The notes under the pieces: model-generated
Seen by the model: only the letters and a program-made list of their open reading frames with translations
Told to the model about the DNA's origin: nothing
The model's database searches: none
Source: Cyclobacteriaceae bacterium
GTDB lineage: Bacteria; Bacteroidota; Bacteroidia; Cytophagales; Cyclobacteriaceae
Direction: 5' to 3'
NCBI GenBank assembly: GCA_029858965.1
Contig: JAOUDZ010000004.1
Coordinates: 1-64,000 of the forward strand
DNA: 64,000 bases
Program-made: the position numbers and the translations under genes
Part shown: positions 24,362-31,442 of the stretch, piece by piece
Position numbering within the stretch: position 1 is the stretch's first letter
How the letters are laid out: every line of letters starts with the position of its first letter

Positions 24362-25072
24362 CTATGTTTTCGCAGAATGCAGCGGGCGCTGGTTATGCCC
24401 GAGAATGCGACCGTCTTCCATCTCAATAATCCGGTCGGTCTTTTCGGCAAATCCGGGGTCGTGCGTCACTACCAAAAAGGTCTGGTTTAGTTCCTGCGAC
24501 ATTTGTTTAAAAAGACCAAAAACGATTTCGCTATTTTTCTTATCCAGGTTGCCAGTCGGTTCATCTCCCATAATAATAAGCGGGTCATTGATCATGGCGC
24601 GCGCAAGCGCTGCTCTTTGCTTCTCTCCGCCTGAAATCTGACCGGCTTTTTTCAGGGCCAGATTTTCTATCCCTAGTCTTCTCAACCGTTCCCTGGCCTG
24701 GTATTCTACTTCCGCTGCGGGATACTTATTGAGTTTGAGGCCAGGCAGCATCACATTTTCCAGGACCGTGAATTCGTTCCACAGGTAGTGGAACTGAAAT
24801 ACAAAGCCAATTTTTTCATTGCGCACATGCGCCAGATATGGTTCGTTTCTTCCTTTGACAGATTGCTGGTCAATAAAGAGGTCACCATCGAAATCCGTAT
24901 CCATTGTAGAAAGGATGTATAGCAGTGTAGACTTTCCGCAGCCGGATTTGCCCATCATCGAAACAAACTCTCCTTTTGATACTGTAAAGGTGATATCTTT
25001 AAGAATCTGGACCGTTACCGGGTCATGGAATGTTTTGTTGATGTGCCTTGCTTCCAGGATGACCTGATTCAT
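24362..25072 (-). CDS. ABC transporter ATP-binding protein (LolD/MacB type)
   Basis: GKSGCGKSTLLYILS, ISGGEKQRAALARAM, IIMGDEPTGNLD. Confidence 0.95.
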   Translation of the reverse strand: MNQVILEARHINKTFHDPVTVQILKDITFTVSKGEFVSMMGKSGCGKSTLLYILSTMDTDFDGDLFIDQQSVKGRNEPYLAHVRNEKIGFVFQFHYLWNEFTVLENVMLPGLKLNKYPAAEVEYQARERLRRLGIENLALKKAGQISGGEKQRAALARAMINDPLIIMGDEPTGNLDKKNSEIVFGLFKQMSQELNQTFLVVTHDPGFAEKTDRIIEMEDGRILGHNQRPLHSAKT

Positions 25073-25075
25073 ATT

Positions 25076-26335
25076 TTATTTTCCTCTTATAATAACTACA
25101 GGATCAATGCGGCTGGCTTTCGCAGCCGGGAATAATCCTGCCAGGTAAGTCGTAATCAGGGAAAAACTCAAACCAATTGCGTAATAGACAAGATCGTAAT
25201 TCACCGGATAAGTTGTTATCGTAGGCAGGGCTGGCGTGTTGAAAGGAATCTGGTCGATGCCTGCTGAGGCAAGAAAACCGAAAAGAATTCCTGATAGCCC
25301 CCCCGAAACGCCAATACTTAAGGCAATCAAAATGAATATCCGATTTACATCAGCGCCTGAGAATCCGGTTGCTTTCAAGATGGCAATAGAATCCATCTTT
25401 TCATAAATCATCATATTGAGAATGTTATAGATTCCAAATCCCGCAACAATCAAAAGTGTTATGCCAACCGCATAGGAGATCAGGGTACGCACAAAACTCC
25501 CGGTTTCAAATTGCGCATTCGCCGTTTGAATATCTTCTGTGTCAGTCTGAAACAAACGATGATATTCTCCTGCAACAGCAGGGGCCAATTCCAGATCTTT
25601 TAGCTTAACCTGAATATCCGTGATATAGTGATTCCCTTTTCCGAGTATTTTTTGGGTGGTGCTTAAGGAGGAATAGCTTTGCGCTTTGTCAAAATCCTGG
25701 ATGCCGGACTGAAAGTAGCCTACCACTTTTAGCCCGAATCGTTCCCCTTGCGGAGTGGCCACGTATATGAGATCACCAATACCTGCCATTAATTTGTCGG
25801 CTAAAGCCTTACCCAGGATAATGCTATTGGAAACGGTTCTTATGTTTGCTGAATTTCCTGCTGTGATGTAATCATCAAAATGGAAAAGCCGGCTTTCGGC
25901 ATCGGGATCAATTCCATTGATTACACCGGTAATTTCTATCGTGCCTGCCGCGAAGAAAAGCGGTGCACTTATTTTAGGGGCGACACCCAATACGCGGTCA
26001 TCTTCCTGCAATGCTTTCAGAATAGCCTGGCTATTGTAAATTTCCTGCCGGCTGTTGTTCGGTTTTATCGAACGGACAAAGTTATGCATGGCTTTGAATT
26101 CACTCGAATTATTGATTGGTTGCTCCTCGCTCACTTTTGTTTCGGAGTATAAACGCACGTGCGCTGTACGGTTCAGGATTAATCCATCCAACAGGTCATT
26201 CAACCCATTCATGAAGCCCAACAGTGCAATGAACATCGTGATGCTAAACATGACACCGATCGCTGCCACCAGCGTTTGTTTCCAACGCGCGAGCAATAAC
26301 GAAACCGCAATCCTGATTATCAACGTGTAGTTCAC
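25076..26335 (-). CDS. ABC transporter permease (FtsX family)
   Basis: FtsX topology; KMDSIAILKATGFSGADV, PAAKASRIDPVVIIRGK. Confidence 0.93.
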   Translation of the reverse strand: MNYTLIIRIAVSLLLARWKQTLVAAIGVMFSITMFIALLGFMNGLNDLLDGLILNRTAHVRLYSETKVSEEQPINNSSEFKAMHNFVRSIKPNNSRQEIYNSQAILKALQEDDRVLGVAPKISAPLFFAAGTIEITGVINGIDPDAESRLFHFDDYITAGNSANIRTVSNSIILGKALADKLMAGIGDLIYVATPQGERFGLKVVGYFQSGIQDFDKAQSYSSLSTTQKILGKGNHYITDIQVKLKDLELAPAVAGEYHRLFQTDTEDIQTANAQFETGSFVRTLISYAVGITLLIVAGFGIYNILNMMIYEKMDSIAILKATGFSGADVNRIFILIALSIGVSGGLSGILFGFLASAGIDQIPFNTPALPTITTYPVNYDLVYYAIGLSFSLITTYLAGLFPAAKASRIDPVVIIRGK

Positions 26336-27432
26336 TGCTCCGGTTTTAAGATAAAATCATCAGGGGTCAATCCGTCTAGAATTTCTACTTTCTGATAGTC
26401 CTTCAAGCCAGTTGTCACTTTTTTCTTCTTTTTTCCTGCAGTCCAAACAAAGGAATCGTCAACCAGGTAATTTCGTGGTATGGTCAACACGTTCTCTTTT
26501 ATCTGGATCACGATGTTTGCTTCGGCGGTAAGGAAAGGGTAGAGCAAAGGAGGCTGTGTTATGAAGTCAGCTTCTACGGTAAACGACTTCGAACGCTCAT
26601 TCATTACCGGGTTAATTCTGGTAACGATCCCCTTGAAAACCTGGCCTTTGTAGCTGTCCATATTTATCAAAACCTGCTGGCCTTCTTTTATCCTGGCGAT
26701 ATCGTACTCATCTACCTGCAGCTCAAGGAAAAATTGATTCTCGCTTCCGATCAGGGCGAGTGGGTTCTGTACCGTCACCAACTCGCCCTTTTCTTTTAAT
26801 ATGTCGTATACTTTTCCATCCACTTCACTCTTAATTATGTATTCGTCTGCCAGCGTAGTGCTGATCTCAAAATTATTCGAAGTCTGTTTTGCATTTAGCT
26901 CAAGTTGGCGGCGCAGATCTTCGAGCCGGATCTGTGCGGAACGATAATTCGAGACCGAACCTTGATAGTTCAGGGTCGTCTGTTCAAGCTCGACGGCTGT
27001 ACCTATGTTTTGTGCCCACAATTGACGCTTACGTTCAAGCAGGAGAGAGTCATTTTCCTTTTTTATTTTAGCCACTTCAACCGCCATTTTCAATTCGTCA
27101 AGCTTTTGCTGATTCTCGCTGAGCTTTGCGTAGTCCGCTGTCAGTTGTGCATTTCTGGCATTCAATTCGGATGTCTTGTTGAATATTCTCAACAGCGGCG
27201 TTCCTTTTGTTACGCGTTCGCCTTCAGCCACAAGAATTTCCTTGATAATACCGCTGACTGTCGAGAATACCTGATATTGATTTTCACTTTTCACGATGCC
27301 TGAGGCATAGACCGATTCGGAAATGTCCTCCACCGTGGGTTGTATTTTCGTCTCATGAGACTGGCATGAGAAAATGACGATGGCGAGCAATGAGAAGACA
27401 GAGAATATGCTATTTTGAGTACTTTTTTGCAT
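26332..27432 (-). CDS. HlyD/MacA-type periplasmic adaptor
   Basis: Lipoprotein-like N-terminus (SCQSHE), coiled-coil hairpin, VDEYDIARIKEGQQVLINMDSYKGQVFKGIVTRINPV. Confidence 0.9.
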   Translation of the reverse strand: MQKSTQNSIFSVFSLLAIVIFSCQSHETKIQPTVEDISESVYASGIVKSENQYQVFSTVSGIIKEILVAEGERVTKGTPLLRIFNKTSELNARNAQLTADYAKLSENQQKLDELKMAVEVAKIKKENDSLLLERKRQLWAQNIGTAVELEQTTLNYQGSVSNYRSAQIRLEDLRRQLELNAKQTSNNFEISTTLADEYIIKSEVDGKVYDILKEKGELVTVQNPLALIGSENQFFLELQVDEYDIARIKEGQQVLINMDSYKGQVFKGIVTRINPVMNERSKSFTVEADFITQPPLLYPFLTAEANIVIQIKENVLTIPRNYLVDDSFVWTAGKKKKKVTTGLKDYQKVEILDGLTPDDFILKPEQ

Positions 27433-27567: not shown

Positions 27568-27599
27568 TTTGCTATGCTGACCATTTTTTTGTACCTTTG
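27568..27599 (+). promoter_or_regulatory. Bacteroidota-type promoter (TTTG -33, TAnnTTTG -7) for the sigma factor gene
   Basis: TTTG 27568-27571, 20-nt spacer, TACCTTTG 27592-27599. Confidence 0.6.
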
Positions 27600-27625
27600 C
27601 ACAGCATGAATCATATCTCACTCTC

Positions 27626-27729
27626 ATAGTAAGCATTATCACCTCCTTTTTCTCTTTTACATTCCGCCATGTAGCAACAAATGAATACGATAAGGAACTA
27701 TCGTTGGTGATTTCTATGTTGCTTACTGT
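27626..27729 (+). ncRNA. Candidate structured 5' leader RNA of the sigma factor gene
   Basis: Nested stems AGTAAGCA(27628-35)/TGCTTACT(27720-27), ATCACC(27638-43)/GGTGAT(27706-11), hairpin ACGATA-AGGAAC-TATCGT (27687-27704). Confidence 0.5.
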
Positions 27730-27775
27730 TTATGAATGTGTGAATTAATGACTAAAAATTAAAAACAAAGCGACC

Positions 27776-28639
27776 ATGAGGCAACTAAAAATAACCCAAA
27801 AGATTACAAACAGAGAATCGCAATCGTTAGACAGATATTTGACAGAAATCGCTAAAATAGATTTGATCACAGCTGAGGAAGAAGTCAAACTGGCACAACG
27901 AATAAGAGAAGGTGATGATAAAGCTTTGGAAAGGCTGGTGAATGCAAACCTTCGTTTTGTTGTATCTGTAGCAAAACAATACCAGGCCACGGGGATGACA
28001 CTTAGTGACCTTATTAATGAGGGAAATCTCGGGTTGATTAAGGCAGCATCCCGTTTTGACGAGAAGCGGGGCTTCAAGTTTATATCATATGCAGTATGGT
28101 GGATAAGACAAACCATCTTGCAGGCATTAGCGGAACAGTCGCGCATTGTGCGTTTACCGCTTAACCGTGTAGGCGCATTGAATAAAATCAATCTAGCCTT
28201 CTCCGAACTGGAACAACAGCATCAACGGGAACCCACAGCCGAAGAATTGGCGGAAGTAATGGAGACAACACCTGATGAAATCCGGAAAACTTTAAGTTAT
28301 CGAAATCGCAAAGTTTCCATGGATGCCCCACTGGGACATGACAGTGACGCAGGTACTTTGCTTGATGTTATGCCCGATGCGACTGCTGACATGCCGGATT
28401 CGCAGCTGATGAATACATCAATGCAAAACGAAATCAAGCGGGCCTTGTCGAGGTTAAGCGAGCGCGAAGCGCAGGTTTTATCCTTGCATTACGGCCTTTC
28501 GGGCGGGCATGCAATTTCCTTACATGAAATTGGTGATCGATTTGATTTAAGTATGGAGCGTGTCCGTCAAATCAAAGAGAAAGCTACCCGGAAACTGCGC
28601 AATGCACCCCGCATGGAAGCATTGAAGTCGTACTTATAA
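27776..28639 (+). CDS. RpoD/SigA-family RNA polymerase sigma factor (possibly a secondary paralogue)
   Basis: LVNANLRFVVSVAKQYQ, DLINEGNLGLIKAASRFDEKRGFKFISYAVWWIRQTI, MERVRQIKEKATRKLR. Confidence 0.95.
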   Translation: MRQLKITQKITNRESQSLDRYLTEIAKIDLITAEEEVKLAQRIREGDDKALERLVNANLRFVVSVAKQYQATGMTLSDLINEGNLGLIKAASRFDEKRGFKFISYAVWWIRQTILQALAEQSRIVRLPLNRVGALNKINLAFSELEQQHQREPTAEELAEVMETTPDEIRKTLSYRNRKVSMDAPLGHDSDAGTLLDVMPDATADMPDSQLMNTSMQNEIKRALSRLSEREAQVLSLHYGLSGGHAISLHEIGDRFDLSMERVRQIKEKATRKLRNAPRMEALKSYL

Positions 28640-28726: not shown

Positions 28727-31132
28727 CTATTCGTAGCGCAATGCTTGAATCGGATTGGCAATCGCTGCGCGTACCGTGTGATAGCCTACGGTAAGTAATG
28801 CGATGATAAGGGAAGAAATCCCAACCAATATGAAAATGCCTATTCCGATGTCGGTCTTATAGGCAAAGTTATTTAGCCATAAGCTGCTGAAGTAATAGGA
28901 TATTGGTATGGAAATGCCAAAAGCAATCAGGATCAGTAATGAGAAGTCCTTTGAAAGCAGGCCGATAAGCCCCGCCGTGGTGGCGCCATTTACCTTGCGT
29001 ATCCCAATTTCTTTCCTCCGCATTTCCGTCGTATAGGAAGAAAGTCCCAATAGGCCAAGGCATGCAATGAAGATGGCCAATATGCTGAAGTATTCCATAG
29101 TCCTGCTGAACTTGTCTTCTTTCCGGTAAAGATTGTCGAAATTATCATCCATAAATGAGTATCGGAATGGATTTCCCTCAAACTGCGTATTCCATTCTTT
29201 CTCAATCGTTGCAATGGTCTGTTTCAAGTCTTTTGATTGTACTTTGATTGATAACACGTTACCACCTAATTGAATAACTAATGGTTTAATGGGATCGTAG
29301 AGTGGTCGGTAATGAAAATCTTTTACCAGCCCGATGACAGTTCCGGCTTGAATTATGTTGGCATTGGCTAACCGCTCTATCTTTTTGCCCACTGCATCGT
29401 TGCCCCAGCCAAGGGCGGCCGCAGCAGATTCATTGATGATGTATCCTACAGAGTCCGTGGAATTTCCAATCTGGAATGAATGCCCCTCAAGGAATTCAAC
29501 ATTCAAAACCTTCTCGAAATCGTGCCCCACAAACATGACGCTAAACCACTGTTGCTTTTCCTGTGGTTGGCCGCCTTCCACAAAGGCGTTCTCAATCACC
29601 TCTTCCTTTCCGGGAATACTGCCTCCGAATAGTGATACTGCTTTGATTTCGTGGTTTTTAATAAGCTCGGACTTAAATCCCTGATATTTTGGAAAAATGT
29701 TAAATGTGGCGTCCACCATCATGACCTGCTCTTTGCTAAAGCCCATATCCTTGTTGTGGACATAGTCAAGCTGCTTGAAAACAATGCCAATACAAATAAT
29801 AAGCGATATTGAAATCACAAACTGGCTTACGACCAGTGCTTTGCGTAGAAAATTATTCGATGCTTTGCTTCCCGCATTTCCCTTTAACACTTCTGTAGGC
29901 TGAAACGAAGCCAGCACAAGGGCTGGGTAGCTTCCGGCCAGGATGCCGGTTACGCAGGCCAGCACCAGCATACTAAAGACAAGTACCGGATTGAACAGAA
30001 TATCATCGGTAAATGACTTACCTGTGAGGCTGTTAAACCAGGGTAGGACCGTGATGATAAGGAAAACAGCGATGATCAGTGACAGAAAACTGGTCAGGAT
30101 AGCCTCACCCATAAACTGAAATATCAGCATGCTTTTATATGCGCCCATTACTTTTCGCATGCCTACCTCTTTAGCACGCTTTATCGAACGGGAAGTAGAC
30201 AAATTCATGAAATTAATAATGGCAATAATCAGGATCAGAAAAGCAACGAAGGAAAAGAGGTATACATGTTGAATCTTTCCGTTCGATTCAAATTCTAATT
30301 CCAGGTCAGAATTAAGGTGGATATCATTGGCCTTTTGCAGGTGAAGTACCACGCCGTTTGCTGAAAGGTTTTCAGGGTAATGATTCTTGACGTAGGCTGG
30401 CAGACCGGCTTCGATCTTTTTCGCTACATCGTCATTGGGTACTGTAAAATACATCCATGCCGCGACCCATACCCATTGGGTTTCAAAAAATTGAGGGTTG
30501 TTGAAAAATGATTTGAATGTTTCAAAGGAGCAGATCATGCTAAACTGTAAGTGGGTGTTGAGCGGCAAATCTTCGATCACACCAATTACTTCCAAATCCC
30601 GAAAACCATTTAAGTCAAGACGTTTGCCAATTGGATCCTGATCTCCAAAGTACTGCTTTGCTTTGCTTTCGGTCAGGATAACCTGGTTCGGGCCGGTAAG
30701 TGCTCCTTTGCTTTCTCCCTTTATGAATTTGAATGTATAGATCTCCAGAAAACTGGGCTCCGCGAAAATAAGATCATCTTCAATATATTCCTCCTCCTCT
30801 AACTTTATTACGGGAGTATTTCCCCAGCTTGAAGGCCTGAATATGATGGCTGCATTTGTGATTTCCGGAAAATCATTTACCAGGGTGTTCTTTGTTGGGA
30901 AAGGAACAGTTGCCGATTGTGACAGGTGTGTCCCCATGGGGAAATCCTGAACAAGACGATAGATTTGTTGGTTATTCTCAAATCCCTTTTCATAACTCAT
31001 TTCGTCTTGCACAAAAAGAAGGATAAGTATACACGCACCTGTCCCGAGCGCAAGCCCCATTGTATTAATTAAGGAGTAATATTTCTGGTTAAAAAATCGT
31101 CGAAATGCAACTTTCAAATAGTTTGTAAGCAT
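28727..31132 (-). CDS. ABC transporter permease, large two-block MacB/FtsX protein
   Basis: MLTNYLKVAFRRFFNQKYYSLINTMGLALG start at 31132; two FtsX blocks. Confidence 0.93.
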   Translation of the reverse strand: MLTNYLKVAFRRFFNQKYYSLINTMGLALGTGACILILLFVQDEMSYEKGFENNQQIYRLVQDFPMGTHLSQSATVPFPTKNTLVNDFPEITNAAIIFRPSSWGNTPVIKLEEEEYIEDDLIFAEPSFLEIYTFKFIKGESKGALTGPNQVILTESKAKQYFGDQDPIGKRLDLNGFRDLEVIGVIEDLPLNTHLQFSMICSFETFKSFFNNPQFFETQWVWVAAWMYFTVPNDDVAKKIEAGLPAYVKNHYPENLSANGVVLHLQKANDIHLNSDLELEFESNGKIQHVYLFSFVAFLILIIAIINFMNLSTSRSIKRAKEVGMRKVMGAYKSMLIFQFMGEAILTSFLSLIIAVFLIITVLPWFNSLTGKSFTDDILFNPVLVFSMLVLACVTGILAGSYPALVLASFQPTEVLKGNAGSKASNNFLRKALVVSQFVISISLIICIGIVFKQLDYVHNKDMGFSKEQVMMVDATFNIFPKYQGFKSELIKNHEIKAVSLFGGSIPGKEEVIENAFVEGGQPQEKQQWFSVMFVGHDFEKVLNVEFLEGHSFQIGNSTDSVGYIINESAAAALGWGNDAVGKKIERLANANIIQAGTVIGLVKDFHYRPLYDPIKPLVIQLGGNVLSIKVQSKDLKQTIATIEKEWNTQFEGNPFRYSFMDDNFDNLYRKEDKFSRTMEYFSILAIFIACLGLLGLSSYTTEMRRKEIGIRKVNGATTAGLIGLLSKDFSLLILIAFGISIPISYYFSSLWLNNFAYKTDIGIGIFILVGISSLIIALLTVGYHTVRAAIANPIQALRYE

Positions 31133-31442
31133 AATGGCGTGGTTTGAACATTGTACTAACAAGCAGCATACCATAAAATAATGTGGTGTTTCGCTTCAAT
31201 CTGGCAGCAGCTCCTGTTCGAATTTGAAAATTCGTGGTCGGAAACGAACTACCGCAAATGGGAGTATTCACCGTTCTATTCGAAAGCAAAGCCCTCGATG
31301 CGATCATCGTGATCTGCGGACGTATGGCCAGGGTTGCTAGCACACGATCAAAATCAGCCCCACTTCGATTAAAATTTGTGATATTTAATGAATGTTGAAA
31401 AAATAGTGCCAGAAGAAATATTTCCAAGCCAGGGAGAACTTT

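Follow-up and report, generated by a model that had tools for sequence, protein, structure and literature searches.

In Escherichia coli, AUG triplets at the 5′ terminus of an mRNA (uAUGs) bind 70S ribosomes and change the expression of the downstream gene, and removal of the uAUG of ptrB reduces its expression to below 8% (PMC4965119). Upstream open reading frames (uORFs) can also act as sensors, as exemplified by toiL and the uORF preceding whiB7, both of which sense ribosome stress (PMC12121999). Within the Bacteroidota, amino-acid leader-peptide attenuators have been reported in flavobacteria, and candidate small ORFs (sORFs) in the long 5′ untranslated regions of Bacteroides (PMC9723704, PMC7366714). 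Our search of the open-access literature found no description of a mini-ORF of the kind presented here ahead of a Bacteroidota sigma factor gene. The locus lies in a 64,000-nucleotide stretch of DNA (the window), which is part of a 114.6-kb contig of a Cytophagales genome, and comprises the following features:

27568–27571, forward strand: −33 element TTTG, identified by sequence; most orthologous promoters have TTTG or a T-rich stretch at this distance (alignment).
27592–27599, forward strand: −7 element TACCTTTG, identified by sequence; the Bacteroidota −7 consensus is TAnnTTTG (PMC9723704, PMC7366714).
27604, forward strand: predicted transcription start (+1), from the −7 box rule of Flavobacterium psychrophilum.
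27606–27629, forward strand: 5′-terminal mini-ORF ATGAATCATATCTCACTCTCATAG, predicted peptide MNHISLS followed by a stop; an equivalent ORF is present in 10 of 10 subclade members.
27618–27629, forward strand: conserved block TCACTCTCATAG (family form TCACTCTYNTAR), defined by pairwise identity and ending at the mini-ORF stop.
27628–27727, forward strand: stem-loop region (outer helix of 8 bp, inner helix of 6 bp, two hairpins), a predicted fold that is not conserved.
27776–28639, forward strand: RpoD-like sigma factor of 287 aa with regions 1.2, 2, 3 and 4 (Pfam), placed by phylogeny as an accessory paralogue.

The sigma gene has the domain content (regions 1.2, 2, 3 and 4; Pfam) and length (~287 aa) of a Bacteroidota primary RpoD, but the tree does not place it as an orthologue of the copy conserved genus-wide. 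Its own genome encodes two other RpoD-like copies, each 65% identical to it. The C170 copy (L003) clusters with near-identical copies found throughout the genus, and the window copy falls in a separate supported clade. Because the C170 copy groups with the genus-wide copies, the phylogeny identifies the window gene as an accessory paralogue and not the primary rpoD of this genome. No orthologue was found in the genus mates searched (best match 65%), and a plasmid search returned nothing above 65%. Copies at 70–77% identity were confined to genus g17 among the 396 family and 390 order genomes drawn, and a search of all 63 g17 genomes recovered 15 copies in 11 genomes. Together with the window copy these form a 16-row clade (support 100/99), which contains a 10-row subclade including the window gene (100/97) and a 5-row sister subclade (98/93) made up of second copies from four of those same genomes plus one more. 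The position of the window copy within the g17 group, combined with the lack of the gene in its own genus, suggests horizontal transfer or repeated loss. No gene neighbourhood is common to all ten subclade members, and the conserved unit is therefore the gene together with its leader. In the window, the sigma gene is flanked on the opposite strand by an ABC ATPase/permease/membrane-fusion-type cluster (24362–27432, minus strand) and, on its other side, by a large permease-like ORF (28727–31174, minus strand), both named by eye. In the Chryseolinea-type genus mates (L006–L025) the number of full-length RpoD-like sigma genes is three to six per genome, an unusual expansion of primary-type sigma factors.

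A first-pass annotation of this DNA had proposed a TTTG-N20-TACCTTTG promoter followed by a ~170-nt leader, and both the promoter and a leader of ~172 nt look real. In F. psychrophilum the TAnnTTTG box occupies positions −12 to −5 (PMC9723704), which places the predicted +1 at 27604, 2 nt before the ATG. With starts placed by promoter or mini-ORF, the 16 leaders of the clade are 138–191 nt long; five of the ten subclade leaders have a weak −7 box. The further proposal that the leader is a cis-regulatory element of an RpoD-like sigma gene agrees with the recurrence of promoter, leader and a conserved 5′ element in orthologues. Comparison of these sequences supports a real regulatory leader, the conserved part of which is its first ~25 nt and not its fold; the first-pass annotation was thus right about the leader, but had stressed the fold and missed the mini-ORF. 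A DNA search for the window leader in 59 genomes matched only itself. In another sigma paralogue group (L013, L014, L016 and L021), a TACCTTGY-like box lies ~100–130 nt ahead of the sigma start, and a C/T-rich stretch (CTTCTCTCCCCCTTCC) comes after it. This box is comparable to the SM5 motif TAnnTTGY (PMC9723704) and possibly represents a different promoter class or a common leader element.

The mini-ORF of the window consists of seven codons and a stop (ATG AAT CAT ATC TCA CTC TCA TAG). All ten subclade leaders carry an equivalent ORF of 5–10 codons directly after the −7 box, mostly of the pattern M-x-x-[I/F]-S-L-[F/S]-stop (MNHISLS, MKIISLS, MKVISLF, MKLISLF, MEHFSLF, MIKKLF, MSIISLF, MDFLF, MDRFSHFSLF and MNRISLF), which L135 (MIKKLF) and L138 (MDFLF) fit only loosely. 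An ATG and a TAA or TAG stop are present in all ten, codons 2 and 3 vary almost freely, and the length differences of −6, −3 and +9 nt are each a multiple of three. With the ten leaders anchored on the mini-ORF stop codon, mean pairwise identity is 0.78 over the final 12 nt of the ORF and drops exactly at the stop to 0.25–0.34, mostly 0.26, the level of unrelated sequence; farther downstream it does not rise until the A-rich region that precedes the sigma gene. The stop lies 113–147 nt before the sigma start codon, and the offset of the mini-ORF to the sigma frame varies among the ten leaders. Start, frame and stop are thus kept in 10 of 10, as for a short ORF under selection independently of the main frame. 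In shuffled sequences, the probability of finding an open in-frame ATG this close to the 5′ end is 0.03–0.07 per leader, which combines to ~1e-4 over the three leaders with changed spacing and to ~6e-10 over seven deep lineages. The latter value presumes independent lineages, and these are only partly so; the ten leaders share ancestry, and the mini-ORFs were recognised by eye first and tested afterwards. The second copy in G350, at a contig end, differs from its twin at one position in 275 nt, a synonymous change within the ORF. On this comparative evidence the mini-ORF is a well-supported conserved element.

The motif is also specific to this gene. Its strict form, ATGNNNNNNWTHTCACTCTYNTAR, occurs 13 times in the 396 family genomes, seven times before the window-type sigma gene and six times inside longer reading frames; outside longer frames it was accordingly found only before the window-type sigma gene. 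Across the 63 genomes of g17 a looser form has more matches, almost all of them inside frames of annotated length; in the window's own genome it has only one other match, whose frame ends at codon 2 (ATGTGA). Among 119 other sigma upstream regions, an ATG stands at the equivalent position in only 2. The sister subclade (L139–L143) has its own conserved 5′ segment, GCTGGCGRTTTATGCGTATTTCTCTTGAAATTGCCC, in the first 40 nt of the leader. Putative ORFs in these five leaders were rejected as coding, given that they vary in length and that close relatives differ by a 1-nt indel, and because of this indel the segment is probably non-coding.

We posit that the mini-ORF is a translation-responsive, 5′-terminal (leaderless) element that couples expression of the accessory sigma factor to ribosome behaviour, and we regard this as the probable explanation. 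The sigma mRNA would start ~2 nt before the MNHISLS ORF, and ribosomes would load right at its 5′ terminus, in the manner of a leaderless mRNA. They would read 5–10 codons ending mostly in Ser-Leu-Phe/Ser-stop and terminate 113–147 nt upstream of the point where sigma translation starts. How often, or for how long, ribosomes sit at the end of the mini-ORF would then set the amount of sigma mRNA that is made, survives or is translated, and the accessory sigma factor would thereby be tied to translation state or to the supply of charged tRNA. The mini-ORF is kept by relatives and the large fold is not; the control point is therefore likely to be the ribosome on the mini-ORF and not an RNA thermometer or switch. 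For the output step we favour Rho-dependent polarity, ribosome supply or mRNA protection and survival as candidates over masking of the start site, which is disfavoured because the folding evidence is negative. The C-rich, G-poor composition of a Rho-loading region is present after the mini-ORF only as a weak bias (C 0.24 and G 0.15 in the first 60 nt), and no coupling structure that would transmit an effect of the mini-ORF was found in the leader folds.

The conserved block could alternatively act as nucleic acid. Its serine codon is TCA in 8 of 8 cases and its leucine codon CTC in 9 of 10, compared with 21% of serine and 9% of leucine codons in g17 loci. This constraint exceeds the needs of the peptide, and it is possible that the codons themselves matter (through tRNA or decoding speed) or that the block is also a nucleic-acid site. 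Taken to its limit, TCACTCTYNTAR would be bound by a protein at about +15 to +26, either as a DNA operator or as a site in the RNA, with an incidental reading frame. We consider this unlikely but worth serious attention, as such a site would explain the codon bias; however, the ATG is conserved on its own, set apart by bases that vary freely, the frame is kept in all three spacing changes, conservation stops exactly at an in-frame TAR that alternates between TAG and TAA, and the block is not palindromic. Because ATG, frame and stop are separately conserved, a translated ORF is clearly favoured over a nucleic-acid site by these sequence comparisons. If the mini-ORF is translated, the codon bias might reflect a codon-level sensor, in which the near-invariant TCA-CTC-TTT/TCN-TAR end slows or stalls ribosomes according to the state of a particular tRNA or release factor and so switches on the sigma factor, a specific version of the model that we regard as unlikely.

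A ribosome on the mini-ORF could also act through RNA structure, as in erm-type translational attenuation, in which it would open a structure that masks the start of the sigma gene. For each of the ten leaders we computed the energy needed to open the sigma start region, once with the mini-ORF occupied by a ribosome and once with it empty. In L144, GAGTTTA just past the mini-ORF stop can pair with TAAACTC near the sigma start, and opening costs 1.3 kcal/mol less under occupancy, a saving reached by 5 of 60 shuffles; in the window, the mini-ORF stop codon shares bases with the beginning of the predicted outer helix. Yet most leaders lack the effect or show it with the sign reversed (−2.9 kcal/mol in the window), none of the ten clearly exceeds shuffles, and neither a consistent gain from occupancy nor a start that is masked unless a ribosome sits on the uORF was seen across them. 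The start regions of the window, L135, L136 and L146 are open from the outset, more so than in almost every shuffle. Open start regions without a consistent gain speak against a thermometer as well as an erm-type switch, and we regard the latter as very improbable. A leader-peptide transcription attenuator was rejected, as the ten ORFs contain no run of codons for a single amino acid and the leader folds no convincing intrinsic terminator, judged by eye. The leader also contains a 12-mer, ATCACCTCCTTT (27638–27649, forward strand), identical to the 3′ tail of 16S rRNA; 0.01 occurrences are expected per window by shuffling. Its absence from orthologous leaders and its three copies in the genome led us to dismiss it as a ribosome decoy and to regard the match as coincidence.

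The multibranch fold on which the first-pass annotation had centred can be drawn as described, and all of its elements belong to the minimum-energy structure predicted by RNAfold: the outer helix AGTAAGCA (27628–27635) with TGCTTACT (27720–27727), the inner helix ATCACC (27638–27643) with GGTGAT (27706–27711), the ACAT/ATGT hairpin (27659–27672) and the hairpin ACGATA-AGGAAC-TATCGT (27687–27704). The pairing is less exceptional than had been claimed. The full leader has a folding z of −1.0, with 31 of 200 shuffles at least as stable, and the segment around the stems, picked after the fact, has a z of −2.8 (3 of 200). Nested helices of at least 8 and at least 6 bp occur in 22 of 2000 dinucleotide shuffles (1.1%) and, when the window itself is cut into 743 overlapping stretches of 172 nt, in 3 of these, so that a few are expected per 64 kb. 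No equivalent nested helix is found in any of the 15 orthologous leaders, which are too diverged to align for pair counting, and in the stem region orthologues are no more alike than expected by chance. The fold is therefore not a conserved feature by this comparison, and the structure may be private to the window species. Rfam searches of the window and leader gave no match reaching the gathering score (best permissive match E = 4.3, minus strand). That the fold itself is a regulator, riboswitch or thermosensor is the least probable of the readings considered: orthologues do not have it in common, and folding predicts a sigma start region that is more accessible than that of 59 of 60 shuffles, opposite to what a masking thermometer would show.

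The record of this locus is corrected in that the leader conserves roughly its first 25 nt, not its fold. If the 5′-terminal mini-ORF acts as posited, an accessory Bacteroidota sigma factor would be wired directly to ribosome state by a regulatory ORF that ranks among the shortest conserved ones and is read from the 5′ terminus with no Shine-Dalgarno sequence, and the locus would provide a compact, mutable system in which to test leaderless initiation against sigma-factor supply in Bacteroidota. A codon-level sensor, if true, would amount to a sigma switch in a phylum largely without Shine-Dalgarno initiation.

The locus shares with the flavobacterial attenuators and Bacteroides sORFs a short ORF in a long 5′ leader within the Bacteroidota, but has neither a run of codons for one amino acid nor a terminator, and its target is a sigma factor. 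Like toiL-topAI and whiB7, it combines a short uORF ahead of a gene with a long leader, and whiB7 also encodes a transcription regulator; in contrast to both, no masked start site or terminator was found in the sigma leader, and the mini-ORF is far shorter than their uORFs and situated at the very 5′ end. This location is also that of the E. coli 5′-terminal uAUG/uORF mRNAs such as ptrB (PMC4965119), which likewise have an AUG at or near the (here predicted) 5′ end, a short uORF and a separate downstream gene with its own start. The downstream genes in E. coli have Shine-Dalgarno sites, whereas the sigma gene has an A-rich start region with no obvious Shine-Dalgarno sequence. Relative to the E. 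coli mRNAs, translation of the mini-ORF is only predicted here, and conservation of the uORF within the lineage of its gene is observed.
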